64,000 nt of DNA. Origin: Basidiobolus meristosporus CBS 931.73. Taxonomy: Eukaryota > Basidiobolomycota > Basidiobolomycetes > Basidiobolales > Basidiobolaceae. Within the stretch, counting starts at the first letter, position 1; each line of letters opens with the position of its first letter. The notes beneath the pieces were generated by a model. It was not told where the DNA came from. It ran no database searches and saw nothing but the letters and a program-made list of their open reading frames with translations. The stretch covers positions 124,001 to 188,000 of the forward strand of contig MCFE01000037.1 of the NCBI GenBank assembly GCA_002104905.1, read 5' to 3'. This document shows positions 6,195-58,081 of this stretch, piece by piece. A program made the position numbers and the translations under genes.

Positions 6195-6199
6195 GGTTA

Positions 6200-22490: not shown

Positions 22491-23384
22491 TTACTGGCGG
22501 CGAGCAATGGTGGCGGTGATGTAGCCAGAGGGGTCACTGATGGGTTGGAAAATGTCCATGTCCTTGCCCTCGTTGGGGAGGTTGAAAGGTTTCAAGTTAA
22601 CGCTGATGTAGTGCTTGTTGGGAAGAGCATAGCTGATCTCGGTGACATCCACATTCTCGGCCAAAACCTTCTCGCCCATCTTGTACATGGTGGCTTGAAC
22701 AGAGGCAGAGTCATCAGTGGCGAAGGTGCCGAGGGTGATTTCACGAACGCTGCCGGCGATCTCGTCGAAAGGAATCTCCTCGATCTTGGACTTCTCCAAG
22801 TTATAGGTCCATTTGGCATCGACACTGGTGGAGAAGATACGGTCGGTGGCATCTTGGAGAGTGGTATTCTCACAACGATGGAAGTTGGTGAATGAGGAGC
22901 CGGTGGACTTCAACACAAGAAGGTCCTTGAGGCGAGACTCAATGGACACCTTTCCATCACGGGAGACAGTCAACTCAACACGTCTGGTTTCGTCACCATC
23001 ACGAAGGAAGGAGTGGGGGTGGAGTTGGCCATCGATGTTGACACGGGTCCAGCGGTGTTGGACGAGCTTGATGTATACATGGTCAACATGGGAGTATCTG
23101 TTGATGAAGTGTTGGCCGATCTCGTAACCGAAACGCTCGATGGTTTGAACATTATCAGACTTCTTGGCAAGAACATAGACGGTGTTCTTGACAGTGTCAG
23201 TGGGGACGACAACTGAGTTGTCAGCCTCGGTGTAGGAGGTCTCGAACTTGCCATCGAGGAGGACTTGAGCGGTGAGCTCAATAACATCATGCCAGTTCTT
23301 GGTGTGACGGATGACCTTGGTGACGCGCACCTTGGTCTTACCGTAGGCTTGTTTCTTCAAGTAGGCACCAGAGTTAGCAGACAT
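22491..23384 (-). CDS. UOX: Urate oxidase, type A, copy A1
   Basis: This intronless gene encodes 297 aa. The start MSANSGAYLKK matches the other type A genes; an in-frame ATG 39 bp upstream would add 13 residues. Urate oxidase converts urate, oxygen and water to 5-hydroxyisourate and hydrogen peroxide; the active enzyme is a tetramer of two tandem T-fold domains. Catalytic positions known from Aspergillus flavus are present: Lys in AYGK (~16), Thr-Asp in VPTDTVKNT (~62-63), Phe in TGSSF (~165), Arg in DRIF (~182), Gln in SVQATMY (~230) and Asn-x-His in LPNKHY (~256-258). It ends ARRQ, one residue longer than its sisters, with no SKL-type peroxisomal signal. It differs from A2 and A3 at several sites (AENVDVTE, HYISVN) and resembles the distal A4-A8 group there. 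Confidence 0.96.
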   Translation of the reverse strand: MSANSGAYLKKQAYGKTKVRVTKVIRHTKNWHDVIELTAQVLLDGKFETSYTEADNSVVVPTDTVKNTVYVLAKKSDNVQTIERFGYEIGQHFINRYSHVDHVYIKLVQHRWTRVNIDGQLHPHSFLRDGDETRRVELTVSRDGKVSIESRLKDLLVLKSTGSSFTNFHRCENTTLQDATDRIFSTSVDAKWTYNLEKSKIEEIPFDEIAGSVREITLGTFATDDSASVQATMYKMGEKVLAENVDVTEISYALPNKHYISVNLKPFNLPNEGKDMDIFQPISDPSGYITATIARRQ

Positions 23385-23904
23385 AATGTTGGATAGAAGA
23401 CTGACAATATTGCTCAACCCCAACTGAGAGAGTGGGGGGATTTATATGAATCGTTCGGTTTCACATCATTCTAGATACTCTCATATCAACATCCATCTCT
23501 ATTTTGGTGAAGATTCATCTTCGGCCAAGTTACACAGGCAGAAGCACGGAGATTGTGGGTACTTTAGATCTGCGCAGTACTGATAATCGATTCAATCTTG
23601 TGTCATTTCCCGCACCATCAATGAGAAATCTGCCTGTGTCCAGATAATCAATTCCATCGACCCTCGTGAACTGGATAATTCTCTTTAGCCGTGGATGCAC
23701 GCAAATCTGGTGACATAACCATGGCTAGGATATCTCCTGCAGTGTGTTGTTCCCATTTCCGAAATCCTTCTTCGAACTCAGTATACTCATTGTGGTGGAT
23801 ATTGATATTGGATGCTGTATGAACATTAATTTATTTGCAACTTAGAGATCACAGTGAATGCATGCTTAATGGTAAGTTAGGGTTGTTCCAAAAACTTGGT
23901 CCGC
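23385..23904 (-). promoter_or_regulatory. A1 promoter region and B1 3' flank
   Basis: On the minus strand a TATAAA lies at 23,446-23,441, about 57 bp before the A1 start codon. A TCGGCC word at 23,521, 137 bp upstream of A1, is the half-site found at a similar distance in A5, A6, A7 and A8. Confidence 0.5.
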
Positions 23905-24795
23905 TTAGAACTTGTTTCCACGACGACCAATGGTGGCAGTAATGTAGCCAGAGAAGTCGGTGACTGGAGAGAAAATGGTCATCTCTTGGCCAGCGTTGGG
24001 AAGGTTGAAGGGGGCAAGGTTGGTGGTGAAGTGATGGCTGTTGGGGAGTGCGTAGTACACATCACGGACTTCTGGGAAACGCTTCAAGATCAGCTCAGCC
24101 ATGCGGTACATGGTGGCCTGGACTGAGGCAGAGTCATCATGGGCGAACACATCAAGGGTGGTCTTACGGACTCCATCGAAGATGCGGTCGAATGGAATGT
24201 TCTCGACTCCAATCGAGGTGTCAATGTTGTAGTGGGCCTTGACGGTAGTGGAGAAGATACGGTCATCAGCATCTTGGAGAGTGGTGTTCTCGCAGAGATG
24301 GAAGTTGGTGAAGGATGAGCCGGTGGTCTTCAAGACGAGAAGGCCTTCCAAGCCAGACTTGATGCTGACATCGTTGGCGCTGACAGTGACCCAGGTCTCT
24401 CTGGTCTCGCTGCCGTCACGGTAGAAGGAGTGAGGGTGGGGCTCGCCGTTGACATTGATTCTGGTCCAGCGGAGTTGAACAATGTGGACGTGGGCGTGGG
24501 TGACATGAGGGTACTTGTCAACGAAGTGCTTGCCGAGTTCGTAACCGTAACGCTCGATGGTCTGAACGTGGTTGGACTTCTTGGCAATGATGTAGCAGGT
24601 GTTCTTGACAGTGTCGGTGGGGACGACCTTGCTGTTGTCAGCCTCGGTGTAAGCCTCTTCGAAGTCACCCTCGAGGAGCACTTGGACAGTGAGCTCGACA
24701 ATGTCGTTCCACTGGGGAGTGTGGCGGATAGCCTTGGTGACTCTGACCTTAGCCTTACCGTAGGCTTGGCGTTTTAACTCAACTGCAGAAGACAT
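23905..24795 (-). CDS. UOX: Urate oxidase, type B, copy B1
   Basis: This intronless gene of 296 aa starts MSSAVELKRQAYGK. Type B differs from type A throughout but keeps the catalytic set: Lys14 in AYGK, Thr60-Asp61 in VPTDTVKNT, Phe162 in TGSSF, Arg179 in DDRIF, Gln226 in SVQATMY, and Asn252/His254 in LPNSHHF. The A-type Lys between Asn and His is Ser here. It has B-specific blocks KAHYNIDTSIGVENIPFDR and PEVRDVYYAL. It ends RRGNKF, not a canonical peroxisomal tripeptide. It lies head to tail upstream of A1, about 520 bp away. It has FHLCEN where sisters have FHRCEN or FHHCEN. Confidence 0.96.
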   Translation of the reverse strand: MSSAVELKRQAYGKAKVRVTKAIRHTPQWNDIVELTVQVLLEGDFEEAYTEADNSKVVPTDTVKNTCYIIAKKSNHVQTIERYGYELGKHFVDKYPHVTHAHVHIVQLRWTRINVNGEPHPHSFYRDGSETRETWVTVSANDVSIKSGLEGLLVLKTTGSSFTNFHLCENTTLQDADDRIFSTTVKAHYNIDTSIGVENIPFDRIFDGVRKTTLDVFAHDDSASVQATMYRMAELILKRFPEVRDVYYALPNSHHFTTNLAPFNLPNAGQEMTIFSPVTDFSGYITATIGRRGNKF

Positions 24796-25360
24796 TGTTG
24801 TATACGATTGGAACTAGGAACACTAATTATGGTGGAGTTCGTATGAAGCAATTTATACAACTCACCGAGATGAAGCGTACCACTGTTCGAGCCAATCATG
24901 GTGATTGGCGGCATAATGAATCCCACTAGATAATAACGGTGTTTGGCTCTATCAGTAGCTGCTAGATCAGATTCGAGTGTTCATCTAATCTTTCTGTGAG
25001 TAATTACCATCTTGAGCAATAGCCTAGAAAACATTACACATGTTTCAGATTGTGATTAATCTGATGATGAAATCTGGGAGATTTGATTGGAATTGCTGGC
25101 CGCGTGATCCACTGAATATGGATTCCACGAGCAGAGGTAGAGTTGGTGTGGAGCGAGTGCTAATGGCAAGCATGAATCGAGGCAATATCAATTCACAATG
25201 ATAATCAAAAGTAGCCCATAGTCAAGACCACGTGGTGTGCTATCAACGCGTTTTACAATGGCAACCTTTCATCACTTTTTAGTCGGTTTTATTACGGATT
25301 GACCAGGTCAATCAATGTTAATGGATGGTAATGAAAATGATCGTGAATACATTTACACGG
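24796..25360 (-). promoter_or_regulatory. B1 promoter region and A2 3' flank
   Basis: On the minus strand a TATAAA at 24,857-24,852 lies about 57 bp before the B1 start. No full TCGG-N6-CCGA site was found. Nothing else recognised. Confidence 0.45.
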
Positions 25361-26251
25361 TTAACGACGGGCAATAGTGGCAGTGATATAGCCAGATGGG
25401 TCACTGACAGGTTGGAAGATATCCATATCCTTGCCCTCGTTAGGAAGGTTGAAAGGCTTCAGGTTGACACTGAAGTAGTGCTTGTTGGGAAGAGCATAGC
25501 TGATCTCACTGACATCCTCAAAGCTGGCAAGAACCTTTTCGCCCATCTTGTACATGGTGGCTTGAACAGAGGCAGAGTTGTCAGTGGCGAAGGTGCTAAG
25601 TGTGATCTCACGAACACCCTCGGCAATTTCATCGAATGGAATCTCCTCAATCTTGGATTTATCAAGGTTGTACGTCCACTTGGCATCGACGCTGGTGGAG
25701 AAAATACGGTCGGTGGCATCTTGGAGAGTGGTGTACTCGCAACGGTGGAAGTTGGTGAATGAAGACCCAGTGGACTTCAACACAAGAAGGTCCTTGAGGC
25801 GGGACTCAATGGATACCTTACCGTTACGGGAGACAGTCAACTCCACACGTCTGGTCTCATCACCATCACGAAGGAAGGAGTGGGGGTGGAGTTGACCGTC
25901 GATCTCAACACGGGTCCAGCGGTGTTGGATAAGCTTGATGTAGACATCATCAACATGAGAGTATCTGTTGATGAAGTGTTGACCAATCTCGTAACCGAAA
26001 CGCTCGATGGTTTGAACTTGGTTGGACTTCTTGGCAAGGACATAGATGGTGTTCTTGACAGTGTCAGTGGGGACGACAACTGAGTTGTCAGCCTCGGTGT
26101 AGGAGGTCTCGAACTTGCCATCGAGGAGGACTTGAGCGGTGAGCTCAATAACATCATGCCAGTTCTTGGTGTGACGGATGACCTTTGTGAGGCGCACCTT
26201 GGTCTTACCGTAGGCTTGTTTCTTCAAGTAGGCACCAGATTTAGTAGACAT
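25361..26251 (-). CDS. UOX: Urate oxidase, type A, copy A2
   Basis: Intact, intronless, 296 aa, starting MSTKSGAYLKKQ and ending ATIARR. All type A catalytic positions are present. It is almost identical to A3, and the two share LASFEDVSEISYALPNKHYF and IFQPVSDPSGY, which separate them from A1 and from A4-A8. A2 and A3 also read FHRCEY where A1 and the distal copies read FHRCEN. Confidence 0.96.
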   Translation of the reverse strand: MSTKSGAYLKKQAYGKTKVRLTKVIRHTKNWHDVIELTAQVLLDGKFETSYTEADNSVVVPTDTVKNTIYVLAKKSNQVQTIERFGYEIGQHFINRYSHVDDVYIKLIQHRWTRVEIDGQLHPHSFLRDGDETRRVELTVSRNGKVSIESRLKDLLVLKSTGSSFTNFHRCEYTTLQDATDRIFSTSVDAKWTYNLDKSKIEEIPFDEIAEGVREITLSTFATDNSASVQATMYKMGEKVLASFEDVSEISYALPNKHYFSVNLKPFNLPNEGKDMDIFQPVSDPSGYITATIARR

Positions 26252-26771: not shown

Positions 26772-27662
26772 TTAGAATTTGTTTCCACGACGACCAATGG
26801 TGGCAGTGATGTAGCCAGAGAAGTCGGTGACTGGAGAGAAAATGGTCATCTCTTGGCCAGCGTTGGGAAGGTTGAAGGGGGCAAGGTTGGTGGTGAAGTG
26901 ATGGCTGTTGGGGAGTGCGTAGTACACATCACGGACTTCTGGGAAACGCTTCAAGATCAGCTCAGCCATGCGGTACATGGTGGCCTGGACTGAGGCGGAG
27001 TCATCGTGAGCGAACACATCAAGGGTGGTCTTGCGGACTCCTTCAAAGATGCGGTCGAATGGAATGTTCTCGACTCCAATCGAGGTGTCAATGTTGTAGT
27101 GGGCCTTGACAGTGGTGGAGAAGATACGGTCATCAGCATCTTGGAGAGTGGTGTTCTCGCAGTGATGGAAGTTGGTGAAGGATGAGCCGGTGGTCTTCAA
27201 GACGAGAAGGCCTTCCAAGCCAGACTTGATGCTGACATCGTTGGCGCTGACAGTGACCCAGGTCTCTCTGGTCTCGCTGCCGTCACGGTAGAAGGAGTGA
27301 GGGTGAGGCTCGCCGTTGACATTGATTCTGGTCCAGCGGAGTTGAACAATGTGGACGTTAGCGTGGGTGACATGAGGGTACTTGTCAACGAAGTGCTTGC
27401 CGAGTTCGTAACCGTAACGCTCGATGGTCTGAACGTGGTTGGACTTCTTGGCAATGATGTAGCAGGTGTTCTTGACAGTGTCGGTGGGGACGACCTTGCT
27501 GTTGTCAGCCTCGGTGTAAGCCTCTTCGAAGTCACCCTCGAGGAGCACTTGGACAGTGAGCTCGACAATGTCGTTCCACTGGGGAGTGTGGCGGATAGCC
27601 TTGGTGACTCTGACCTTAGCCTTACCGTAGGCTTGGCGTTTTAACTCAACTGCAGAAGACAT
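26772..27662 (-). CDS. UOX: Urate oxidase, type B, copy B2
   Basis: Intact, intronless, 296 aa, starting MSSAVELKRQ. The frame stays open 78 bp upstream to another ATG at 27,740, but the TATA-like run at 27,721-27,715 lies inside that extension, so 27,662 is chosen. Catalytic residues are as in B1. It differs from B1 by only a few residues (HANVHIV, FHHCEN, FEGVR) and its 3' end is nearly identical. Confidence 0.95.
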   Translation of the reverse strand: MSSAVELKRQAYGKAKVRVTKAIRHTPQWNDIVELTVQVLLEGDFEEAYTEADNSKVVPTDTVKNTCYIIAKKSNHVQTIERYGYELGKHFVDKYPHVTHANVHIVQLRWTRINVNGEPHPHSFYRDGSETRETWVTVSANDVSIKSGLEGLLVLKTTGSSFTNFHHCENTTLQDADDRIFSTTVKAHYNIDTSIGVENIPFDRIFEGVRKTTLDVFAHDDSASVQATMYRMAELILKRFPEVRDVYYALPNSHHFTTNLAPFNLPNAGQEMTIFSPVTDFSGYITATIGRRGNKF

Positions 27663-28146: not shown

Positions 28147-29037
28147 CTAACGACGGGCGATAGTGGCAGTGATATAGCCAGATGGGTCACTGACAGGTTG
28201 GAAGATATCCATATCCTTGCCCTCGTTAGGAAGGTTGAAAGGCTTCAGGTTGACACTGAAGTAGTGCTTGTTGGGAAGAGCATAGCTGATCTCACTGACA
28301 TCCTCAAAGCTGGCAAGAACCTTTTCGCCCATCTTGTACATGGTGGCTTGAACAGAGGCAGAGTTGTCAGTGGCGAAGGTGCTAAGTGTGATCTCACGAA
28401 CACCCTCGGCAATTTCATCGAATGGAATCTCCTCAATCTTGGATTTATCAAGGTTGTACGTCCACTTGGCATCGACACTGGTGGAGAAAATACGGTCGGT
28501 GGCATCTTGGAGAGTGGTGTACTCGCAACGGTGGAAGTTGGTGAATGAAGACCCAGTAGACTTCAACACAAGAAGGTCCTTGAGGCGAGACTCGATGGAT
28601 ACCTTACCGTTACGGGAGACAGTCAACTCAACACGTCTGGTCTCATCACCATCACGAAGGAAGGAGTGGGGGTGGAGTTGACCGTCGATCTCAACACGGG
28701 TCCAGCGGTGTTGGATAAGCTTGATGTAGACATCATCAACATGAGAGTATCTGTTGATGAAGTGTTGACCAATCTCGTAACCGAAACGCTCGATGGTTTG
28801 AACTTGGTTGGACTTCTTGGCAAGGACATAGATGGTGTTCTTGACAGTGTCAGTGGGGACGACAACTGAGTTGTCAGCCTCGGTGTAGGAGGTCTCGAAC
28901 TTGCCATCGAGGAGGACTTGAGCGGTGAGCTCAATAACATCATGCCAGTTCTTGGTGTGACGGATGACCTTTGTGAGGCGAACCTTGGTCTTACCGTAGG
29001 CTTGTTTCTTTAAGTAGGCACCAGAGTTAGCAGACAT
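28147..29037 (-). CDS. UOX: Urate oxidase, type A, copy A3
   Basis: Intact, intronless, 296 aa, starting MSANSGAYLKK and ending ATIARR. It is nearly identical to A2 in protein and DNA outside the first codons (SANS as in A1 versus STKS in A2), which suggests a recent duplication of an A-B unit or conversion between copies. Catalytic residues are all present. Confidence 0.96.
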   Translation of the reverse strand: MSANSGAYLKKQAYGKTKVRLTKVIRHTKNWHDVIELTAQVLLDGKFETSYTEADNSVVVPTDTVKNTIYVLAKKSNQVQTIERFGYEIGQHFINRYSHVDDVYIKLIQHRWTRVEIDGQLHPHSFLRDGDETRRVELTVSRNGKVSIESRLKDLLVLKSTGSSFTNFHRCEYTTLQDATDRIFSTSVDAKWTYNLDKSKIEEIPFDEIAEGVREITLSTFATDNSASVQATMYKMGEKVLASFEDVSEISYALPNKHYFSVNLKPFNLPNEGKDMDIFQPVSDPSGYITATIARR

Positions 29038-29578: not shown

Positions 29579-30469
29579 TTAGAACTTGTTTCCACGACGG
29601 CCAATGGTGGCAGTGATGTAGCCAGAGAAGTCGGTGACTGGAGAGAAAATGGTCATCTCTTGGCCAGCGTTAGGGAGGCTGAAGGGGGCAAGGTTGGTGG
29701 TGAAGTGATGGCTGTTGGGGAGTGCGTAGTACACATCACGGACTTCTGGGAAGCGCTTCAAGATCAGCTCAGCCATGCGGTACATGGTGGCCTGGACTGA
29801 GGCAGAGTCATCGTGAGCGAACACATCAAGGGTGGTCTTGCGGACTCCTTCAAAGATGCGGTCGAATGGAATGTTCTCGACTCCAATCGAGGTGTCAATG
29901 TTGTAGTGGGCCTTGACGGTAGTGGAGAAGATACGGTCATCAGCATCCTGCAGGGTGGTGTTCTCGCAGCGATGGAAGTTGGTGAAGGACGAGCCGGTGG
30001 TCTTCAAGACGAGAAGGCCTTCCAAGCCAGACTTGATGCTGACATCGTTGGCGCTGACAGTGACCCAGGTCTCTCTGGTCTCGCTGCCGTCACGGTAGAA
30101 GGAGTGAGGATGAGGTTGACCATTAACATTAATTCTAGTCCAGCGGAGTTGAACGATGTGAACGTGGGCGTGGGTGACATGAGGGTACTTGTCAACGAAG
30201 TGCTTGCCGAGTTCGTAACCGTAACGCTCGATGGTCTGAACGTGGTTGGACTTCTTGGCAATGATGTAGCAGGTGTTCTTGACAGTGTCGGTGGGGACGA
30301 CCTTGCTGTTGTCAGCCTCGGTGTAAGCCTCTTCGAAGTCACCCTCAAGGAGCACTTGGCAGGTGAGCTCGACAATGTCGTTCCACTGAGGAGTGTGGCG
30401 GATAGCCTTGGTGACTCTGACCTTAGCCTTACCGTAGGCTTGGCGTTTTAACTCAACAGAGGTAGACAT
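29579..30469 (-). CDS. UOX: Urate oxidase, type B, copy B3
   Basis: Intact, intronless, 296 aa, starting MSTSVELKRQAYGK; an in-frame ATG 48 bp upstream is less likely because it lies between the TATA run and the conserved start. Catalytic residues are as in B1. It has ELTCQVLLEG like the distal B copies but retains HTPQWND and YIIAKKSNHV of the proximal B group, and it has NGQPHPHSF and LAPFSLPNAG. It is therefore slightly intermediate. It is the outermost gene of the proximal, all-minus half of the array. Confidence 0.96.
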   Translation of the reverse strand: MSTSVELKRQAYGKAKVRVTKAIRHTPQWNDIVELTCQVLLEGDFEEAYTEADNSKVVPTDTVKNTCYIIAKKSNHVQTIERYGYELGKHFVDKYPHVTHAHVHIVQLRWTRINVNGQPHPHSFYRDGSETRETWVTVSANDVSIKSGLEGLLVLKTTGSSFTNFHRCENTTLQDADDRIFSTTVKAHYNIDTSIGVENIPFDRIFEGVRKTTLDVFAHDDSASVQATMYRMAELILKRFPEVRDVYYALPNSHHFTTNLAPFSLPNAGQEMTIFSPVTDFSGYITATIGRRGNKF

Positions 30470-33011: not shown

Positions 33012-34028
33012 ATGTTCGAAATAAACGCGGGCGATAGAGTTCTCTTGGTCGGGAACCCCCAGGTGAAAATGGAAGCCCTGGTGCAATGTCGTAGCGAGCT
33101 TGACCAGAAAGTCTCCCCTAACGGAAAGGTGGATTTCGAGCAATTCGACCGCATTCCTATTCGTAAGTGCTGTTGCTACGGATCTTTCAAATGATTCGGC
33201 GTTCTGACCTGTGTTGTTCTTTTAGTTTATCTTTCACCCATCTACAACGCCATCTTGACCGGTGTCCTCCAGCCTTCAGGAACAGCCCATAACGCAGTTG
33301 TTCTTAGAAAGCTTCTAGGCGCTCTGTTGCCGGGAGGTCGGATTATCCTTCACGAGCCTGCCTTGGTTGAGGGAGAGCAGAATACTGCCGCCCCCGTCAA
33401 CCGCACAGCCAAAGATATCGTTTCGGAACTCAAGATCAGCGGCTTCATCGACATCTCGGTGAACAGCAGGATTCTCACTGAAGAGGAGCTGAACGACTAC
33501 ATCCAAAACACCTGGAGTCTCCAGGATAGAGACAATGCTCACCAAAGCCTCCAAGGGAAACTGGAGATGGTGCAAATCGTTGCCAAGAAGCCTGCTTACG
33601 AAGTAGGCGCCTCGGCCGCTCTTCCTTTCGCGCGCAAAAAGGCAGCCACTCAAGCCACCAAAAGAGCGGCAGTCTGGAAGATCAGCGCCAATGACGAAGA
33701 CGAGGAGCTGGAAGACGAAGACGACCTTTTGGATGAAGAGGATCTGGCCAAGCCTGACCCCAGCTCTTTGACCAAACCTGACGATTGCAGCAGCAAGAAG
33801 AAGGCCTGTAAGAACTGCTCCTGTGGCCTCTCGGAGGAGTTGGAGGAAAAGAAAAGGGTGGTGCCTAAGCCCACTCCAGCCCCCGCCCCCGTATCATCCT
33901 GTGGTAGCTGCTACTTGGGAGATGCTTTCCGTTGTGGTAGCTGTCCGTATTTAGGGATGCCGGCTTTCAAGCCTGGCGAGAAGGTCCAACTGGGCGGCAA
34001 CATGATGGCAGATGACATCGACCTCTAA
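33012..34028 (+). CDS. DRE2: Anamorsin/Dre2, cytosolic Fe-S cluster assembly protein
   Basis: Exons are 33,012-33,162 and 33,226-34,028, with a 63-bp intron (gtaagt...ttttag), giving 317 aa. The N-terminal half is the methyltransferase-like domain of the family ([39 protein letters not shown]). An acidic linker ([18 protein letters not shown]) follows. The C-terminus carries both cluster-binding motifs: C-X6-C-X2-C-X-C (in [16 protein letters not shown]) and C-X2-C-X7-C-X2-C ([15 protein letters not shown]), then KPGEKVQL. Dre2 with Tah18 passes electrons at an early step of cytosolic iron-sulphur protein assembly. It is convergent with CRM1. Confidence 0.96.
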
Positions 34029-44792: not shown

Positions 44793-45683
44793 ATGTCTGC
44801 ATCTGTTGAGTTGAAGCGCCAAGCCTATGGTAAAGCCAAGGTCAGAGTCACCAAGGCCATTCGCCACACCGCCCAATACAACGACATCGTTGAGCTCACT
44901 TGCCAAGTCCTTCTCGAGGGTGACTTCGAAGAGGCTTACACCAAGGCTGACAACAGCATGGTTGTCCCCACTGACACTGTCAAGAACACCTGCTACGTCA
45001 TTGCCAAGAAGTCCGACCATGTTCAGACCATCGAGCGTTATGCCTACGAGCTCGGCAAGCACTTCGTTGACAAGTACACCCATGTCACCCATGCTCATGT
45101 GCACATTGTCAAGTACCGCTGGGCCAGAATCAATGTCAACGGCGAGCCCCACCCTCACTCCTTCTACCGCGATGGTAGTGAGACCAGAGAGACCTGGGTC
45201 ACAGTCAGTGCGAACGATGTCAGCATCAAGTCTGGCTTGGAAGGCCTCCTTGTGTTGAAGACCACCGGCTCGTCCTTCACCAACTTCCATCGCTGCGAGA
45301 ACACCACTCTCCAAGATGCTGATGACCGTATCTTCTCCACCACTGTCAAGGCCCACTACAACATCGACACCTCGGTTGGAGTCGAGAACATTCCATTCGA
45401 CCGCATCTTTGAAGGAGTCCGCAAGACCACCCTTGATGTGTTCGCCCACGATGACTCTGCCTCAGTCCAGGCCACCATGTACCGCATGGCTGAGTTGATC
45501 TTGAAGCGCTTCCCAGAAGTCCGTGATGTGTACTACGCCCTCCCCAACAGCCATCACTTCACCACCAACCTTGCCCCCTTCAACCTCCCGAATGCTGGCC
45601 AAGAGATGACCATTTTCTCCCCAGTCACCGACTTCTCTGGATACATTACTGCTACCATTGGTCGTCGTCGCAGCAACTTCTAA
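44793..45683 (+). CDS. UOX: Urate oxidase, type B, copy B5
   Basis: Intact, intronless, 296 aa from the ATG at 44,793 (MSASVELKRQAYGK). Catalytic residues are as in B1. Distal B-group markers are HTAQYNDIVELTCQ, TKADNSMVVPTD, KSDHVQTIERYAYELG and KYRWARINVNGEP. The C-terminus is RRRSNF instead of RRGNKF. An AATAAA at 45,715 fits a polyadenylation signal. Confidence 0.96.
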   Translation: MSASVELKRQAYGKAKVRVTKAIRHTAQYNDIVELTCQVLLEGDFEEAYTKADNSMVVPTDTVKNTCYVIAKKSDHVQTIERYAYELGKHFVDKYTHVTHAHVHIVKYRWARINVNGEPHPHSFYRDGSETRETWVTVSANDVSIKSGLEGLLVLKTTGSSFTNFHRCENTTLQDADDRIFSTTVKAHYNIDTSVGVENIPFDRIFEGVRKTTLDVFAHDDSASVQATMYRMAELILKRFPEVRDVYYALPNSHHFTTNLAPFNLPNAGQEMTIFSPVTDFSGYITATIGRRRSNF

Positions 45684-47141: not shown

Positions 47142-48033
47142 TTAACGACGAGCAATGGTAGCAGTAATATAGCCAGATGGATCACTGATGGGTTGGAAGA
47201 TATTCATGTCCTTGCCTTCGTTGGGGAGGTTGAAGGGCTTCAAGTTGACGCTGAGGTAGTGCTTGTTGGGAAGAGCATAGCTGATCTCGCTGACATCCAC
47301 GTTCTGTCCCAACACCTTCTCACCCATTTGGTACATGGTAGCTTGCACCGAGGCTGAGTCATCGGTGGCGAAGGTGCTGAGGGTGATCTCACGAACGCTG
47401 CTGGCGATCTCGTCGAATGGAATCTCCTCGATCTTGGACTTCTCAAGGTTGTAGGTCCACTTGGCATCCACACTGGTGGAGAAGATGCGGTCGGTGGCGT
47501 CCTGGAGAGTGGTGTTCTCACAACGGTGGAAGTTGGTGAATGATGAGCCGGTGGACTTCAACACAAGGAGGTCCTTGAGGCGGGACTCGATGGACACCTT
47601 TCCATCACGAGAGACAACCAGCTCAACACGTCTGGTCTCATCACCGTCACGGAGGAAGGAGTGCGGGTGGAGCTGGCCATCGATCTCAACGCGGGTCCAG
47701 CGGTGCTGGATGAGCTTGATGTAGACATCATCGACATGAGAGTATCTGTTGATGAAGTGTTGACCAATCTCGTAGCCGAAACGCTCGATGGTCTGGACAT
47801 TCTCGGACTTCTTGGCGAGGACATAGAGGGTGTTCTTGACAGTGTCAGTGGGGACAACGACAGAGTTGTCAGCCTCGGTGTAGGAGGTCTCGAACTTGCC
47901 ATCGAGGAGGACTTGAGCGGTGAGCTCGACAACATCGTGCCAGTTCTTAGTGTGGCGGATGATCCTTGGTGATGCGAACCTTGGTCTTGCCATAGGCTTG
48001 CTTCTTCAAATAGGCACTGGAAGTGTTGGACAT
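47142..48033 (-). pseudogene. UOX: Urate oxidase, type A, copy A6, with one +1 frameshift
   Basis: Full length (892 bp) and otherwise uniform with A5. One extra base at about 47,963 (gatgatccttgg for gatgaccttgg) breaks the frame about 25 codons after the start, in the VTKVIRHT region. The rest of the frame is open to the normal ATIARR end. It may be a young pseudogene or an indel error. Its start region (gacatttcgt) and 3' flank are shared with A5. Confidence 0.85.
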
Positions 48034-48554
48034 TTCGTTACTAGATATTTGGCAGATACTTTGAACTCCTGATAGATACGAGTGACAATGACTTCTCTTA
48101 TATAACTGGTAGTGCCACTTGTTGATCTTAATTTACCATTGGAGTAGGTAGAATCTTTTTAGAAATATATGTGATGGCCTCGGCCAGCCCACTACGATGA
48201 TGCACAAAGTGTGTGTGTGAGATGCGGTCACAGCCCTCATTTGTAGATATTCTCAGGAATAGAGATCAACTACACATCCTTCATTACCAGCGATGGGAGA
48301 TGATTTGTGTGACAGCAACTGCGTTGCAACTAGATCCGCAAGTCCCATCTAATCTACTATGTTCTCGTGACTAGTGGCCGTGTGCAATTGCCAATGCCTA
48401 GATCCAGAAATTAGAATAACACCGAGATTGCAGTGAAATGAACATGGTGCATATCCGAGGATGTATGTGGTCGGGAACTTTCTCAGATTGTATATATATG
48501 CCGCGCTGAAGAAATGGAAAGGCCAAGCAATATCATTGGTAAGTGATTTGAAGT
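48034..48554. promoter_or_regulatory. Divergent promoter region of A6 and B6
   Basis: TATA runs are at 48,098-48,105 (A6) and 48,491-48,498 (B6). A TCGGCC half-site is at 48,180, 147 bp from the A6 ATG. The conserved block (tctcaggaatagagatcaac and acatcctt) is at about 48,249-48,280. Confidence 0.55.
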
Positions 48555-49445
48555 ATGTCTGCCTCTGTTCAATTAAAACGTCAAGCCTATGGTAAAGCCA
48601 AGGTCAGAGTCACCAAGGCCATCCGCCACACCGCCCAATACAACGACATTGTCGAGCTCACTTGCCAAGTCCTTCTCGAGGGTGACTTCGAAGAGGCTTA
48701 CACCAAGGCTGACAACAGCATGGTTGTCCCCACTGACACTGTCAAGAACACCTGCTACGTCATTGCCAAGAAGTCCGACCATGTTCAGACCATCGAACGT
48801 TATGCCTACGAGCTCGGCAAGCACTTCGTTGACAAGTACTCCCATGTCACCCATGCTCATGTGCACATTGTCAAGTACCGCTGGGCCAGAATCAATGTCA
48901 ACGGCGAGCCCCACCCTCACTCCTTCTACCGTGACGGCAGCGAGACCAGAGAGACCTGGGTCACGGTCAGTGCGAACGATGTCAGCATCAAGTCTGGCTT
49001 GGAAGGCCTTCTTGTGTTAAAGACCACCGGCTCGTCCTTCACCAACTTCCATCACTGCGAGAACACCACTCTCCAAGACGCTGATGACCGTATCTTCTCC
49101 ACCACTGTCAAGGCCCACTACAACATCGACACCTCGATTGGAGTCGAGAACATTCCATTCGACCGCATCTTTGAAGGAGTCCGCAAGACCACCCTGGATG
49201 TGTTCGCCCACGATGACTCTGCCTCAGTCCAGGCCACCATGTACCGCATGGCTGAGCTGATCTTGAAGCGCTTCCCAGAAGTCCGTGATGTGTACTACGC
49301 CCTCCCCAACAGCCATCACTTCACCACCAACCTTGCCCCCTTCAACCTCCCTAACGCTGGCCAAGAGATGACCATTTTCTCCCCTGTTACTGACTTCTCT
49401 GGATACATCACCGCAACCATTGGTCGTCGTGGCAACAAATTCTAA
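48555..49445 (+). CDS. UOX: Urate oxidase, type B, copy B6
   Basis: Intact, intronless, 296 aa, starting MSASVQLKRQAYGK (Gln6 where the sisters have Glu) and ending RRGNKF. The catalytic set is complete. It belongs to the distal B group and is the only intact member of its pair, since A6 is frameshifted. Confidence 0.96.
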   Translation: MSASVQLKRQAYGKAKVRVTKAIRHTAQYNDIVELTCQVLLEGDFEEAYTKADNSMVVPTDTVKNTCYVIAKKSDHVQTIERYAYELGKHFVDKYSHVTHAHVHIVKYRWARINVNGEPHPHSFYRDGSETRETWVTVSANDVSIKSGLEGLLVLKTTGSSFTNFHHCENTTLQDADDRIFSTTVKAHYNIDTSIGVENIPFDRIFEGVRKTTLDVFAHDDSASVQATMYRMAELILKRFPEVRDVYYALPNSHHFTTNLAPFNLPNAGQEMTIFSPVTDFSGYITATIGRRGNKF

Positions 49446-50305: not shown

Positions 50306-51196
50306 TTAACGACGAGCAATGGTAGCAGTGATATAGCCAGATGGATCACTGATGGGTTGGAAGATGTTCATGTCCTTGCCTTCGTTGGGGAGGTTGAAGG
50401 GCTTCAAGTTGACGCTGAGGTAGTGCTTGTTGGGAAGAGCATAGCTGATCTCGCTGACATCCACGTTCTGTCCCAACACCTTCTCACCCATTTGGTACAT
50501 GGTGGCTTGCACCGAGGCTGAGTCATCGGTGGCGAAGGTGCTGAGGGTGATCTCACGAACGCTGCTGGCGATCTCGTCGAATGGAATCTCCTCGATCTTG
50601 GACTTCTCAAGGTTGTAGGTCCACTTGGCATCCACACTGGTGGAGAAGATGCGGTCGGTGGCATCCTGGAGAGTGGTGTTCTCACAACGGTGGAAGTTGG
50701 TGAATGATGAGCCGGTGGACTTCAACACAAGGAGATCCTTGAGGCGGGACTCGATGGACACCTTTCCATCACGAGAGACAACCAGCTCAACACGTCTGGT
50801 CTCATCACCGTCACGGAGGAAGGAGTGCGGGTGGAGCTGGCCATCGATCTCAACGCGGGTCCAGCGGTGCTGGATGAGCTTGATGTAGACGTCATCGACA
50901 TGAGAGTATCTGTTGATGAAGTGTTGGCCAATCTCGTAGCCGAAACGCTCGATGGTCTGGACATTCTCGGACTTCTTGGCGAGGACATAGAGGGTGTTCT
51001 TGACAGTGTCAGTGGGGACAACGACAGAGTTGTCAGCCTCGGTGTAGGAGGTCTCGAACTTGCCATCGAGGAGAACTTGAGCGGTGAGCTCGACAACATC
51101 ATGCCAGTTCTTGGTGTGGCGGATGACCTTGGTGATGCGAACCTTGGTCTTGCCATAGGCTTGCTTCTTCAAGTAGGCACCGGAAGTGTTGGACAT
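50306..51196 (-). CDS. UOX: Urate oxidase, type A, copy A7
   Basis: Intact, intronless, 296 aa, starting MSNTSGAYLKKQ and ending ATIARR. All catalytic positions are present. It is nearly identical to A5 and A8. Its promoter holds the only complete TCGG-N6-CCGA palindrome noticed in the array. Confidence 0.96.
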   Translation of the reverse strand: MSNTSGAYLKKQAYGKTKVRITKVIRHTKNWHDVVELTAQVLLDGKFETSYTEADNSVVVPTDTVKNTLYVLAKKSENVQTIERFGYEIGQHFINRYSHVDDVYIKLIQHRWTRVEIDGQLHPHSFLRDGDETRRVELVVSRDGKVSIESRLKDLLVLKSTGSSFTNFHRCENTTLQDATDRIFSTSVDAKWTYNLEKSKIEEIPFDEIASSVREITLSTFATDDSASVQATMYQMGEKVLGQNVDVSEISYALPNKHYLSVNLKPFNLPNEGKDMNIFQPISDPSGYITATIARR

Positions 51197-51677
51197 TTTG
51201 CAGATAGGTATTTGACTTATACTTCATGTGTGGTCCTCTCTCAGTTAAATAGTAAATATTCGGCACGTGCATCCACCACCAATTCGGAGTTGTATGAATG
51301 GGAAATATGTAGGTTTCAGAGTGGCCTCGGCCTTTGCCGACTGCTGTCCTACCAAGATCAAGGAGTAAGTGGTGCTTCCCTCAAACGTAGATAATCTCAG
51401 GGTTGAGATCTACTTCTCGTCCTTAGTTACAGCCGTAGATGAATTTGTGTGACACAAATTGCTGTACTGCGAAGTCATACTGGTCAAATCTTATCTATCT
51501 TGCACCAGAACCAAGCATCAGTCAGTCCCACCGTAGGCCTAGAATCCGGATATAATTTTGGCAGCCGGATTCAGTAGCAGAATTATTAGTGGCGAAAGAA
51601 ATTTCCATGATTTTAGGAGTATATATACCGGCATTATTCAGCAGTATAGACCACACAATCATTTCAAAAGAATAGAA
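51197..51677. promoter_or_regulatory. Divergent promoter region of A7 and B7
   Basis: A TATATATA at 51,620-51,627 lies about 50 bp before the B7 ATG. The A7 side has only an AT-rich run (51,244-51,260). The conserved block (tctcagggttgagatctact and tcgtcctt) lies near 51,391-51,425. It contains the palindromic site at 51,327. Confidence 0.6.
51327..51340. promoter_or_regulatory. TCGG-N6-CCGA palindrome, UaY/Ppr1-type site
   Basis: The sequence TCGGCCTTTGCCGA fits exactly the site bound by zinc-cluster dimers such as Aspergillus UaY (activator of purine catabolism genes including urate oxidase) and yeast Ppr1. It lies 131 bp from the A7 start. One such site is expected by chance in about 65 kb, so position and context matter more than the match itself. 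Confidence 0.5.
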
Positions 51678-52569
51678 ATGTCTGGAGCTGTTGAGTTGAA
51701 GCGTCAAGCCTATGGTAAAGCCAAGGTCAGAGTCACCAAGGCCATTCGCCACACCGCCCAGTACAACGACATCGTTGAGCTCACTTGCCAAGTCCTTCTC
51801 GAGGGTGACTTCGAAGAGGCTTACACCAAGGCTGACAACAGCATGGTTGTCCCCACTGACACTGTCAAGAACACCTGCTACGTCATTGCCAAGAAGTCCG
51901 ACCATGTTCAGACCATCGAGCGTTATGCTTACGAGCTCGGCAAGCACTTCGTTGACAAGTACACCCATGTCACCCATGCTCATGTGCACATTGTCAAGTA
52001 CCGCTGGGCCAGAATCAATGTCAACGGCGAGCCCCACCCTCACTCCTTCTACCGTGACGGCAGCGAGACCAGAGAGACCTGGGTCACAGTCAGTGCGAAC
52101 GATGTCAGCATCAAGTCTGGCTTGGAAGGCCTTCTTGTGTTGAAGACCACCGGTTCGTCCTTCACCAACTTCCATCACTGCGAGAACACCACTCTCCAAG
52201 ACGCTGATGACCGTATCTTCTCCACCACTGTCAAGGCCCACTACAACATCGACACCTCGATTGGAGTCGAGAACATTCCATTCGACCGCATCTTCGACGG
52301 AGTCCGCAAGACCACCCTTGGATGTGTTCGCTCACGATGACTCTGCCTCAGTCCAGGCCACCATGTACCGCATGGCTGAGTTGATCTTGAAGCGCTTCCC
52401 AGAAGTCCGTGATGTGTACTACGCCCTCCCCAACAGCCATCACTTCACCACCAACCTTGCCCCCTTCAGCCTCCCTAACGCTGGCCAAGAGATGACCATT
52501 TTCTCCCCAGTCACCGACTTCTCTGGATACATTACTGCTACCATTGGCCGTTGTAACACCAAATTCTAA
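51678..52569 (+). pseudogene. UOX: Urate oxidase, type B, copy B7, with one +1 frameshift
   Basis: Full length (892 bp), starting MSGAVELKRQAYGK. One extra G at 52,319-52,321 (cccttggatg for cccttgatg) breaks the frame after FDGVRKTTL, about residue 214, before the catalytic Gln and His. The remaining frame reads normally to RCNTKF, an altered C-terminus. It is otherwise a typical distal B copy. It may be a young pseudogene or an assembly indel. Confidence 0.85.
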
Positions 52570-53089: not shown

Positions 53090-53977
53090 TTAACGACGGG
53101 CAATGGTGGCAGTGATATAGCCAGATGGATCACTGATGGGTTGGAAGATGTTCATGTCCTTGCCTTCGTTGGGAAGGTTGAAGGGCTTCAAGTTGACGCT
53201 GAGGTAGTGCTTGTTGGGAAGAGCATAGCTGATCTCGCTGACATCCACGTTCTGTCCCAACACCTTCTCACCCATTTGGTACATGGTGGCTTGCACCGAG
53301 GCTGAGTCATCGGTGGCGAAGGTGCTGAGGGTGATCTCACGAACGCTGCTGGCGATCTCGTCGAATGGAATCTCCTCGATCTTGGACTTCTCAAGGTTGT
53401 AGGTCCACTTGGCATCCACACTGGTGGAGAAGATGCGGTCAGTGGCATCCTGGAGAGTGGTGTTCTCACAACGGTGGAAGTTGGTGAATGAGGAGCCGGT
53501 GGACTTCAACACAAGGAGGTCCTTGAGGCGGGACTCGATGGACACCTTTCCATCACGAGAGACAACCAGCTCAACACGTCTGGTCTCATCACCGTCACGG
53601 AGGAAGGAGTGCGGGTGGAGCTGGCCATCGATCTCAACGCGGGTCCAGCGGTGCTGGATGAGCTTGATGTAGACATCATCGACATGAGAGTATCTGTTGA
53701 TGAAGTGTTGACCAATCTCGTAACCGAAACGCTCGATGGTCTGGACATTCTCGGACTTCTTGGCGAGGACATAGAGGGTGTTCTTGACAGTGTCGGTGGG
53801 GACAACGACAGAGTTGTCAGCCTCGGTGTAGGAGGTCTCGAACTTGCCATCGAGGAGGACTTGAGCGGTGAGCTCGACAACATCGTGCCAGTTCTTAGTG
53901 TGGCGGATGACCTTGGTGATGCGAACCTTGGTCTTGCCATAGGCTTGTTTCTTCAAGTAAGCAACGGAATTAGGCAT
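53090..53977 (-). CDS. UOX: Urate oxidase, type A, copy A8
   Basis: Intact, intronless, 295 aa, starting MPNSVAYLKKQ (first residues differ from the other A copies) and ending ATIARR. All catalytic residues are present. It is divergent from B8, and this is the last fully intact pair before the array decays. Confidence 0.96.
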   Translation of the reverse strand: MPNSVAYLKKQAYGKTKVRITKVIRHTKNWHDVVELTAQVLLDGKFETSYTEADNSVVVPTDTVKNTLYVLAKKSENVQTIERFGYEIGQHFINRYSHVDDVYIKLIQHRWTRVEIDGQLHPHSFLRDGDETRRVELVVSRDGKVSIESRLKDLLVLKSTGSSFTNFHRCENTTLQDATDRIFSTSVDAKWTYNLEKSKIEEIPFDEIASSVREITLSTFATDDSASVQATMYQMGEKVLGQNVDVSEISYALPNKHYLSVNLKPFNLPNEGKDMNIFQPISDPSGYITATIARR

Positions 53978-54483
53978 AACTTTATGATTACAAGAGTTCA
54001 GTCAATGTGGTATGGTAGGCATCCAGTTCCTATTTATAGATATTGACCGCTTCCCTCATAACGGTAATGGTCGTCTTCCGGATTCCTCAATAACAACCTG
54101 AGTCTCGGCCTTTCTTATCTCCAGTAAATTCAGGAACCGGGGCCTGATGATGGTAACACATACACTTTATTCTGTTGCACCATTCAAGTTTGAAAGTCGG
54201 TCTGAGCTTCAGTCTGCGTAACCGATTATTTGAAAATGTATAAAAACTTCATCTCGGAGGTTTTCTGTACCACAATCCAGTTGGACATGCCGATCCTAAA
54301 TAGTCAAATCTCATCTTGATGAATCTCTTGGTATCATCAAATATTCTGTGCAAAGCCTGGATTCTTGAGCAATCATAATTGCGTGTCTATTGCAAAGCTA
54401 ATGTAATAATGCTGGTCTTAATAGTATAAAAGCGCTCTATCAACCAACATTATAGGTCAGAAACCTTGAGTGGAAGTACAAGA
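53978..54483. promoter_or_regulatory. Divergent promoter region of A8 and B8
   Basis: A TATTTATAG at 54,031 serves A8 and a TATAAAAG at 54,425 serves B8, about 50 bp before each ATG. A TCGGCC half-site is at 54,105, 128 bp from the A8 start. Confidence 0.55.
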
Positions 54484-55374
54484 ATGTCAGGTTCAGTAGA
54501 GTTGAAGCGTCAAGCCTATGGTAAAGCCAAGGTCAGAGTGACCAAGGCCATCCGCCACACCGCCCAGTACAACGACATCGTTGAGCTCACTTGCCAAGTC
54601 CTTCTCGAGGGTGACTTCGAAGAGGCTTACACCAAGGCTGACAACAGCATGGTTGTCCCCACTGACACTGTCAAGAACACCTGCTACGTCATTGCCAAGA
54701 AGTCCGACCATGTTCAGACCATCGAACGTTATGCCTACGAGCTCGGCAAGCACTTCGTTGACAAGTACACCCATGTCACCCATGCTCATGTGCACATTGT
54801 CAAGTACCGCTGGGCCAGAATCAATGTCAACGGCGAGCCCCACCCTCACTCCTTCTACCGTGACGGCAGCGAGACCAGAGAGACCTGGGTCACAGTCAGT
54901 GCGAACGATGTCAGCATCAAGTCTGGCTTGGAAGGCCTTCTTGTGTTGAAGACCACCGGTTCGTCCTTCACCAACTTCCATCACTGCGAGAACACCACTC
55001 TCCAAGACGCTGATGACCGTATCTTCTCCACCACTGTCAAGGCCCACTACAACATCGACACCTCGATTGGAGTCGAGAACATTCCATTCGACCGCATCTT
55101 CGACGGAGTCCGCAAGACCACCCTTGATGTGTTCGCTCACGATGACTCTGCCTCAGTCCAGGCCACCATGTACCGCATGGCTGAGTTGATCTTGAAGCGC
55201 TTCCCAGAAGTCCGTGATGTGTACTACGCACTCCCCAACAGCCATCACTTCACCACCAACCTTGCCCCCTTCAACCTCCCTAACGCTGGCCAAGAGATGA
55301 CCATTTTCTCCCCAGTCACCGACTTCTCTGGATACATTACTGCTACCATTGGCCGTCGTAGGAACAAATTCTAG
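54484..55374 (+). CDS. UOX: Urate oxidase, type B, copy B8
   Basis: Intact, intronless, 296 aa from the ATG at 54,484 (MSGSVELKRQAYGK). It ends RRRNKF and stops with TAG rather than TAA. Catalytic residues are as in B1. It shares FDGVR and much silent sequence with B7, consistent with joint duplication of the A7-B7 and A8-B8 units. Confidence 0.96.
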   Translation: MSGSVELKRQAYGKAKVRVTKAIRHTAQYNDIVELTCQVLLEGDFEEAYTKADNSMVVPTDTVKNTCYVIAKKSDHVQTIERYAYELGKHFVDKYTHVTHAHVHIVKYRWARINVNGEPHPHSFYRDGSETRETWVTVSANDVSIKSGLEGLLVLKTTGSSFTNFHHCENTTLQDADDRIFSTTVKAHYNIDTSIGVENIPFDRIFDGVRKTTLDVFAHDDSASVQATMYRMAELILKRFPEVRDVYYALPNSHHFTTNLAPFNLPNAGQEMTIFSPVTDFSGYITATIGRRRNKF

Positions 55375-55862
55375 TTCCATCATTGCCTCTGTAAATTTAT
55401 TTATTAAATATTCACATACTTGACGTGACAGCCAATCTTTTTGCATTAATGTGATGATTATTTTTTAGTTTTCGGGTATTCATTAAACTGTTGGTAGTCC
55501 TGGGTTTACCCATATAGTGAAGAACCGGTCTACTGAAATGTGAATATAGCTTGCTACGTTACACAAGTTTACATGTATTATAAGCTATAGCACTTCATAT
55601 TGCCGTACACCAATGTTAACTTTTTAACTGCTCGGCACTTCTAGATGCTACCGCATTTGAAATCTATAGAGTGTTTTCCTCAAATCCTTGGAAGTAATGC
55701 TGAAAATTTGGATTTTCGGTTTTCCAGGGATGTAAAATCTGGATTGTCCATTTTCCAATACATTCGTGTCAATCACAATTCAAACAAACCTTGTGGCAAA
55801 GTAGATTTACGACTTCGTTCGAATGCTTGCTAATCGTTAATGTTTATGTTGGATTCTGTCAA
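55375..55862. other. Intergenic between B8 and the A9 remnant, nothing recognised
   Basis: AT-rich. A 62-codon open stretch at 55,645 has no recognisable content. Confidence 0.4.
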
Positions 55863-56063
55863 TTTACCGACAGACGATAGTAGCAGCGATGTGGCCGGAA
55901 GGATCACTGATGGGCCGGAAGTGCTCACGTCCCTGAGCTTGCCATCAAGGAGGACTTGAGCAGTGAGCTCGACAACATCATGCCAGTTCTTGGTGTGGCG
56001 GATGACCTTAGTGATGCGAACCTTGGTCTTACCATAGGCATTTGCAGGAGTTGGACAAGTTTG
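55863..56063 (-). pseudogene. Urate oxidase type A remnant, A9, with large internal deletion
   Basis: Read on the minus strand, the first part (about 56,035-55,937) matches type A codons from AYGKTKVRITKV to LLDGK. It is joined at about 55,936 directly to the last ~22 codons (FRPISDPSGHIAATI...). About 690 bp between them are gone, and the start codon is lost. It keeps the A position and strand of an A-B divergent pair. Confidence 0.85.
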
Positions 56064-56587
56064 TATAGCTGATGCGGATCAGAAATTGAAACCCGAGAAG
56101 CACATCAACATTGACAATTGGGCTCTTATATTTTTGCCGACAATACTGACAACTATCAATGTACCCAAGTCTTAGAAATTCAGTGAGCCTGGACTATCTT
56201 CATAGACGAATAACGTTGTGGGTAAGGCAACAATTTTGTTCACAACTCCTAATACTGTAGATCCTATATATCTTAAATACCGTAAAGCTATATGTATGCT
56301 ATCATAAGGTGGCCTACTTAGACATAGGACCTAGGGTAGCTTTCAGAATCTAATTGCTTTCATACTGACAATTGACCAGATCTAATCTAATTGTCGACAT
56401 GTCAGGGTGTAGGAATAATTTTGCAAAATCTGTAATTCTTGGGAATTAAGATTCAAGATATAGCATGAGCGTATATCAGGTTTGCGCTTGCCTATCAGTG
56501 GCGAGTCTCATGCCCTAAGGTTTGGAAATTAATGTCCTACAAGTGGCGGTTCAATTATTATCTCCCTTTCTGAAGCCTTGAAATTGA
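56064..56587. other. Former A9/B9 promoter region
   Basis: Its length matches the other divergent promoters, but no TCGGCC half-site or clear shared block is seen. Nothing else recognised. Confidence 0.4.
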
Positions 56588-57471
56588 ATGTCTGATTCGG
56601 TTGGTAAAGCCAAGGTCATCCGCCACACTGCCCAATACAACGACGTTGTCGAGCTCACTTGCCAGGTGCTTCTCGAGGGCGACTTCGAAGAGGCTTACAC
56701 CAAGGCTGACAACAGCATGGTTGTCCCCACTGACACTGTCAAGAACACCTGCTACGTCATTGCCAAGAAGTCCGACCATGTTCAGACCATCGAGCGTTAT
56801 GCTTACGAGCTTGGCAAGCACTTCGTTGACAAGTACTCTCATGTCACCCATGCTCATGTGCACATTGTCAAGTACCGCTGGACCAGAATTAACATCAATG
56901 GCGAGCTTCACCCTCACTCCTTCTACCGTGACGGCAGTGAGACCAGAGAGACCTGGGTCACAGTCAGTGCGAACGATGTCAGCATCAAGTCTGGCTTGGA
57001 AGGCCTTCTTGTGTTGAAGACCACCGGCTCGTCCTTCACCAGCTGCCATCACTGTGAGAACACCACTCTCCAAGACGCTGATGGCCGTATCTTCTCCACC
57101 ACTGTCAAGGCCCATTACAACATCGACACCTCGATTGGAGTCGAGAACATTCCCTTCGACCGCATCTTTGAAGGAGTCCGCAAGACCACCCTGGATGTGT
57201 TCGCTCACGATGACTCTGCCTCAGTCCAGGCCACCATGTACCGCATGGCTGAGTTGATCTTGAAGCGTTTCCCAGAAGTCTGTGATGTGTACTACGCACT
57301 CCCCAACAGCCATCACTTCACCACCAACCTTGCCCCTTCAACCTCCCTAACGCTGGCCAAGAGATGGCCATTTTCTCCACTGTAACTGATTTCTCTAGCT
57401 ATATCACTGCTACCATTGTTCGTCGTGGTAACAAGTTTCAATTTTCATCAGTGCCTGCCTTCTCTGATTAG
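56588..57471 (+). pseudogene. Urate oxidase, type B, copy B9, decayed
   Basis: It starts MSDSVGKAKVIRHTAQYND. Compared with intact B genes it lacks the ELKRQAY and RVTKA segments by two in-frame deletions close to the N-terminus. The frame then stays open to about 57,332, where one missing C (ttgccccttc for ttgcccccttc) shifts it. The normal stop is also lost and the old frame runs on to 57,471. Substitutions TSCHHC, ADGRIF and PEVCDVYY lie in conserved stretches. Confidence 0.9.
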
Positions 57472-57496: not shown

Positions 57497-57542
57497 ACCC
57501 CGTATTCGGTCATCATAAAATACGACTGGTTCGCCTCACATT

Positions 57543-57569
57543 TTAGGGTTAGGGTAACCCTAACCCTAA
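57543..57569. repeat. Head-to-head interstitial telomeric motif
   Basis: Two TTAGGG units followed by T, a central A, then the exact inverse with two CCCTAA units: a 27-bp palindrome with perfect 13-bp arms. TTAGGG is the common fungal telomere repeat. The orientation, TTAGGG leading into CCCTAA, is that of two chromosome ends joined end to end. Uricase B copies converge on it from both sides. Confidence 0.75.
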
Positions 57570-57606
57570 GCATAAAATTTGAGGTTGAGCAAAAAACTTC
57601 CATGAC

Positions 57607-57857
57607 TTATAGTTTGTTTCCCCCACGACCAATGATGGGGGTGAAGTAACCCAAGATGTCAGTAATGGGTGAGGAGATGACTATTTAGGAATGGTGTCTA
57701 TTGGGGAGAGCATAGTACACATCATGGACTTCGGGGAAGTACAAGAACAACTCAGCCAGGCGGTACATGGTGGCCTGGACTGAGGCAGAGTCATCATGAG
57801 CGAACACATCCAAGGTGGTCTTGCAGACACCTTCAAAGATACAGTGGAATAGGATGA
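57607..57857 (-). pseudogene. Urate oxidase type B remnant, B10
   Basis: Read on the minus strand it encodes the C-terminal third of type B: IFEGVCKTTLDVFAHDDSAS, VQATMYRLAEL and the VHDVYYALPN block. An internal deletion follows, then the tail GRGGNKL and a stop. The N-terminal two thirds are missing. Its strand is opposite to all other B genes of the distal half. Confidence 0.85.
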
Positions 57858-57877
57858 GTAATCCCTGATACCAGAGC

Positions 57878-58081
57878 TGACACGATGTTATTGAGCTCAC
57901 CGCTCAAGTCCTCCTCGATGGCAAGTTCGAGACTTCCTACACCGAGGCTGACACCTCTGTCGTTGTCCCCACTGACACTGTCAAGAACACCCTCTATGTC
58001 CTCGCCCAGAAGGCCGAGAATGTCCAGACCATCGAGCGTTTCGGCTACGAGATTGGTCAACACTTCATCAACAGATACTCT
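57878..58081 (+). pseudogene. Urate oxidase type A remnant, A10
   Basis: The plus-strand segment encodes type A residues from about HDVIELTAQVLLDGK to EIGQHFINRYSD and then stops matching. It includes the Thr-Asp catalytic motif. The start and the last two thirds are absent. It is the only type A sequence on the plus strand. With B10 it forms a mirror image of the usual A(-)B(+) pair, with the promoter deleted. Confidence 0.88.

Follow-up and report, generated by a model that had tools for sequence, protein, structure and literature searches.

How a fungal genome comes to hold an ordinary enzyme in extraordinary copy number, and what keeps the copies alike, are the questions raised by a uricase (urate oxidase) locus in Basidiobolus meristosporus CBS 931.73. 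Fungi usually have one uricase gene. The window, meaning the whole analysed stretch of 64,000 nucleotides (nt) at positions 124001-188000 of contig C613, contains 20 uricase loci at 22497-58081, belonging to two types, A and B. The array is real, large and unusual, in its evolutionary regime as well as in its copy number. It probably arose by an old amplification of a head-to-head A-B pair, the coding sequences having been homogenised within each type by gene conversion and kept by selection, most probably for abundant enzyme. Related loci were sought in the whole assembly (89.0 Mb, 1311 contigs).

The Uricase Array

A tblastn search of the window, queried with an intact protein of each type, located the loci and recovered the 12 intact copies, 5 disrupted copies and 3 remnants listed in an initial annotation. 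Every intact uricase is a single open frame, and the Pfam Uricase matches in the window are as strong as E = 1.1e-68 for A and 1.3e-64 for B, so a chance match is excluded. The gene order is A B A B A B, a 10-kb gap, and then A B A B A B A B A B A B B A. The strict alternation that had been claimed thus holds for 18 of the 19 steps from one neighbour to the next, the exception being at the right end, where two B loci adjoin.

The six genes on the left (22.5-30.5 kb) all lie head-to-tail on the minus strand. They are the intact copies A1 (22497..23384), B1 (23908..24795), A2 (25364..26251), B2 (26775..27662), A3 (28150..29037) and B3 (29582..30469). The five spacers between them measure 487-568 nt. 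The array is divided into halves by about 10 kb carrying exons of two unrelated genes, anamorsin/DRE2 (33195..34028, plus strand; Anamorsin_N 6e-27, CIAPIN1 3.8e-21) and CRM1/exportin (34925..37453, minus strand; CRM1_C 1.9e-122).

The right part (40.6-57.4 kb) is built of head-to-head pairs, with A on the minus and B on the plus strand. Its members are A4x (40631..41519) and B4x (42031..42919), A5 (43388..44275) and B5 (44793..45680), A6x (47145..48033) and B6 (48555..49442), A7 (50309..51196) and B7x (51678..52566), and A8 (53093..53980, whose start codon is the second of the aligned codons) and B8 (54484..55371). The start-to-start distance is 481-521 nt in the five right head-to-head pairs measured. 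A5, B5, B6, A7, A8 and B8 are intact. A4x, A6x and B7x are each out of frame through a single extra base, which may be a sequencing error, in which case the intact count of the array would rise to as many as 15; B4x carries several frameshifts. The array closes, by tblastn, with an A remnant (55821..56039, minus), the disrupted B9x (56570..57438, plus) and an inverted pair of remnants, B (57613..57855, minus), which interrupts the alternation, and A (57881..58081, plus). Between B9x and the B remnant, at 57543-57569, two TTAGGG repeats meet two CCCTAA repeats head to head, a junction that resembles fused telomere sequence or a scar left by break repair.

Coding Sequences Are Alike While Most Flanks Have Diverged

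Within each half of the array, same-type copies are mostly 96-99% identical, A1 excepted. The ten intact same-type pairs within a half whose synonymous divergence (dS) is under 0.2 have dS of 0.037-0.156, while A1 differs from A2 and A3 by 0.42-0.44. This likeness is largely confined to coding sequence. In nine of the ten close pairs, BLAST finds no match in the 450 nt upstream (B5/B6 match at 69% over 189 nt) and, again in nine of ten, none in the 300 nt downstream (A7/A8 match at 85% over 178 nt). Similarity ends -11 to 19 nt beyond the start codon in nine of these pairs (333 nt in B5/B6) and 2-41 nt beyond the stop codon in nine (177 nt in A7/A8). Coding divergence between duplicates therefore lies far below flank divergence, which is one of the patterns by which concerted evolution through gene conversion is recognised. 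Between the two halves, and between the array and the contigs C80, C510 and C428, dS is 0.3-0.8, so that codon bias alone does not explain the near-identical coding sequences. Runs of shared sites reach p<=0.01 in 4 of 45 A pairs and in 9 of 45 B pairs, where about 0.5 are expected in each, by a permutation test that takes no account of the tree of copies.

The spacers were compared by z-scores against first-order Markov resamples, which also underlie the promoter-word expectations given below. The left spacers are at most faintly similar (z -0.8 to 3.5), and the right spacers p4 and p8 show little kinship (z -1.0 to 2.7). Because same-type coding sequences are alike but most spacers are unalignable, the likeness of the copies does not date their duplication; the combination instead argues that the array is old and that within-type conversion has been largely confined to coding sequence.

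The plainest alternative, a recent tandem amplification for dosage in which copies are alike simply by being young, would account for the 96-99% identities and for the downstream similarity of A7 and A8. It is largely refuted by the unalignable spacers, including the faintly similar left ones, when these are set against equally close pairs elsewhere in the genome: C510/C428 (dS 0.058-0.068) and C479a/b (dS 0.025-0.057) have promoters that are 93 and 95% identical, respectively. We therefore regard recent amplification as quite improbable. The array does not look like the product of one, and its apparent age was missed by the initial annotation.

Spread of the copies as cDNA or with a mobile element would fit the single open frames of the intact uricases and a homology that in most cases goes no further than the start and stop codons. 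Untranslated ends were not carried along, however, and the order and spacing of the genes are regular. The two C479 pairs share a block of 2265 nt (98% identical) that ends 6-7 nt past both stop codons, and no convincing target-site duplication was found at these two blocks (the best chance match is 5 nt). Such a spread appears very improbable.

Exchange between the types was considered as well. The longest identical run between A and B, among all comparisons of 14 A with 13 B intact copies, is 30 nt and lies over an active-site stretch. In alignment codons 60-90, 51 of 432 pooled fourfold comparisons between A and B differ in the window, versus 43 of 105 in C80, C510 and C428. As the longest run is only 30 nt and codon bias is strong, A-to-B gene conversion is not claimed.

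Old duplication followed by within-type gene conversion would thus be the simplest account. A and B would have arisen from one another long before the array, and the head-to-head pair would then have been copied along the contig, being found now on at least five other contigs too. The spacers may subsequently have drifted until most were unalignable, while same-type coding sequences overwrote one another by gene conversion in tracts that would mostly end at start and stop codons, where similarity ends. With no convincing exchange between A and B, the two types could persist. Selection, suggested by low ratios of nonsynonymous to synonymous divergence (dN/dS) and strong codon bias, would have maintained the copies, its most likely target being abundant uricase in a fungus that lives on the uric-acid-rich droppings of reptiles or amphibians.

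Several observations weigh against this account. The homogenised block of the C479 pairs takes in the promoter, and restriction to coding sequence is accordingly not universal. On the right, spacers p5, p6 and p7 still show clear traces of kinship (z 8-16). Finally, the middle enzymes of the purine pathway are not amplified.

Two Old Types With Conserved Active Sites

A and B have about 60% of residues in common and 60-69% DNA identity, and 39 positions show a fixed difference between them. In a protein tree, B forms a clade with 100/100 support. An approximately unbiased test does not reject A as a clade when Aspergillus flavus and two bacterial sequences serve as outgroups (p 0.38). The proposal of two paralogous types, diverged before the array was amplified, is supported, B forming a clade and separateness of A being compatible with the tree. 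The A and B subclades largely mirror each other by contig, and the pair therefore seems to have moved as one; the A copies of the right array do not form a clade.

Each protein has two uricase half-domain stretches (PF01014) above the cut-off, over its full length. The nine positions scored, with numbering and roles that we take from A. flavus (Lys10, Thr57, Asp58, Phe159, Arg176, Val227, Gln228, Asn254 and His256), are kept in all 27 intact copies of the assembly (14/14 A, 13/13 B), as had been proposed for both types. Across intact copies, the five disrupted array copies being left out, dN/dS is mostly 0.03-0.18, with 0.28 in one near-identical pair that is probably allelic; synonymous sites are saturated in some of the distant pairs. 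These values support purifying selection that keeps the copies working. A bacterial origin was also explored: a scan of genome contigs gave two relatives, with identities of 39 and 36%, and the best matches among solved structures come from A. flavus, so there is no sign of recent transfer.

Uricases Elsewhere in the Genome

The 27 intact uricases of the assembly comprise 14 A and 13 B copies. Beyond the array, intact pairs lie on C80, C510, C428, C986, C479 (two) and C680, and all seven are head-to-head A-B, which bears out the suggestion that the amplified unit was an A-B pair. Remnants occur on C236, C222, C237, C489 and C601, of which C236 and C222 are near-identical. C986 matches C428 at 95-99% identity over kilobases, and C178 matches the left edge of the window at 99.6% over kilobases; both are probably alleles. 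Without C986 and C178, 24 intact uricases remain, evenly balanced as 12 A and 12 B. C510 and C428 are 84-97% identical over about 5.5 kb, and the count drops to 22 if C510 is also a haplotype of C428.

Near-duplicate contigs such as C428/C986, C178/window and C236/C222 are what might lead one to suspect an assembly artefact. This explanation is disfavoured and seems highly improbable, as no compared A-B spacers are near-identical (the closest flanks, downstream of A7 and A8, reach 85%), CRM1 inside the array is one locus in the whole assembly, and the head-to-head pairs recur on other contigs.

A Possible Division of Labour Between A and B

Why two types should be kept side by side may be asked of their protein ends. 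The usual peroxisomal targeting signal of type 1 (PTS1) is SKL-like, and a canonical C-terminal PTS1 is present in none of the 27 intact copies: A ends in ARR, ARQ or the like, and B in NKF, NKI, TKI or, once, SNF. One rather unlikely idea would place the two types apart, B in the peroxisome and A in the cytosol, and have them amplified together for this reason. The ending [N/T]K[F/I] is found in 12 of 13 intact B copies, the most divergent pairs included, and in 0 of 14 A copies. Parallel routes would also fit the two 2-oxo-4-hydroxy-4-carboxy-5-ureidoimidazoline (OHCU) decarboxylases, one ending in the peroxisome-like AKL (C800:4731-5201) and the other in EAN (C776:6222-6689). On the other hand, NKF, NKI and TKI depart from the usual signal for peroxisomes, B5 ends in SNF, and no motif resembling the second type of signal (PTS2) was found in the first 40 residues of the 27 copies. 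A signal hidden in A through splicing or stop read-through was sought by eye in 150 nt, where nothing consistent appeared. Isocitrate lyase and acyl-CoA oxidase, examined for the peroxisome signals in use, gave no guidance on this point.

The idea first put forward, that the two proteins form a mixed A/B tetramer and that equal dosage of both is selected, is rather more doubtful still. The pairs stay together, with equal numbers of intact A and B once likely haplotigs are set aside, head-to-head promoters permit co-expression, and 39 differences between A and B are fixed. Yet each type retains all nine catalytic residues, so that by sequence neither depends on the other, and the left-half genes have separate promoters. 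A broader version, in which two co-selected uricases (as a mixed tetramer, or as cytosolic A and peroxisomal B) form a head-to-head unit of ~2.2 kb bounded by stop codons that was multiplied about a dozen times and is kept in step by two parallel streams of conversion, is rather unlikely and clearly less probable than pair amplification with within-type conversion under selection for the amount of enzyme.

Promoters and Codon Usage

The word CTCGGCC recurs in seven of nine non-redundant head-to-head promoters, where its orientation is constant and its core lies 59-146 nt away from the start of A. In the array it lies at 44408..44414 (A5/B5), 48179..48185 (A6x/B6), 51326..51332 (A7/B7x) and 54104..54110 (A8/B8). 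The expectation is 0.14, a figure uncorrected for the choice of the word, which was picked in a scan of all 6-8-mers over the same promoters. Nine of 12 head-to-head promoters were used in the motif counts, the near-copies C510, C986 and C479b being omitted; C510 and C479b also carry the word. CTCGGCC is absent from p4 (where both genes are broken), from C680 and from all six left promoters, and it also occurs elsewhere in the window, coding stretches included. Shared descent can also preserve such a word. It resembles half of what we take to be the fungal UaY site (TCGG-N6-CCGA), the full form of which is present in one of the nine head-to-head promoters. GATA sites are not enriched, with 21 versus 19.0 expected in head-to-head and 19 versus 14.0 expected in left promoters.

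Fourfold codons ending in A or G make up 10% (A) and 12% (B) in the intact array uricases and are more frequent (21-53%) in 16 of 18 other frames. The two frames with lower or equal values are allantoicases (C377:7898-8845 and C849:23062-24009), whose codon bias equals or exceeds that of the uricases. This bias fits, without showing, high expression of the pathway.

The Purine Pathway and Ecology

Counted as loci in the assembly with haplotigs included, purine permeases (PF00860) number 16 plus one fragment, and allantoicases five intact plus two with stops. The permeases form clusters of three genes at C514:31687-40337 and of two genes plus the fragment at C1169:15051-19974. 5-hydroxyisourate (HIU) hydrolase is found on three contigs (C763 and the twins C134/C378), and OHCU decarboxylase at two loci. 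Left of the array lie two genes for inosine-uridine nucleoside hydrolases, each in two open frames on the minus strand (16160..17577 and 20680..21989). These and their near-identical twins on C178 are the genome's only PF01156 matches. The idea that the fungus feeds on urate gains support from the 16 permease loci and from the restriction of PF01156 matches to the array's border and C178. Selection for urate use is likely on these grounds, and selection for dosage is plausible; urate as the selecting food, like gene conversion as the process, is something we infer. The strain is described as isolated from gecko dung (PMC7466969), and B. meristosporus is credited with 16 NAT/NCS2 members against a fungal average of 2 (PMC6308229). 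A search with the Basidiobolus primer Ba1 gave 0 matches.

Literature searches found no paper in the library searched that joins Basidiobolus with uricase or urate oxidase. Those that combined uricase with tandem duplication or with the expansion of fungal families gave, judged by title, nothing on fungal uricase.

Among neighbouring features, the two nucleoside hydrolase genes flank an amino-acid transporter (within 16160-21989). A C2H2 zinc-finger frame adjoins the array (58895-59527, plus strand) and is, by position, a candidate regulator. A Copia-like retroelement, judged by eye, is spread over several open frames at 5920-10129 (plus strand), and pieces of a dispersed repeat at 339-2242 and 10919-12195 are 77-82% shared with contig C479 (L005). 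Elsewhere in the genome, a tandem acyl-CoA oxidase pair is found with the same scores on C152:5302-10949 and C702:47239-52886, which are probably haplotigs.

Significance and Comparison With Known Systems

This very large uricase family is well suited, as a clean natural test, to the question of how coding sequences are kept alike by gene conversion while regulatory DNA drifts, with about 20 copies, two types, a known order and broken copies to compare. It also gives genetic grounds to ask whether uric acid in the waste of reptiles and amphibians is what Basidiobolus lives on, and its natural variants of uricase are of interest for treating gout with the enzyme.

The expansion of NAT/NCS2 transporters in B. 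meristosporus (PMC6308229) concerns the same pathway, and its 16 members are equalled by the 16 permease loci found here. That study is about transporters, and uricase does not occur in its text.

The proteins themselves are close to the cofactor-free urate oxidase Uox of A. flavus (PF01014; PDB 2iba, 4d12), which they match over nearly the full length (E 4.5e-78 for A, 2.2e-69 for B). A is 47% identical to it, and the nine catalytic or binding residues are retained. Unlike the A. flavus system, B. meristosporus has two types in one genome and about 24 intact genes, and in B the C-terminus has a short extension.

Concerted evolution by gene conversion is known from histone, hsp70 and ribosomal-protein paralogues. 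The uricase array resembles such families in joining near-identical coding sequences to diverged flanks. It differs from them in that two interleaved types appear to have been homogenised separately, and in that the gene concerned encodes an enzyme of purine breakdown.

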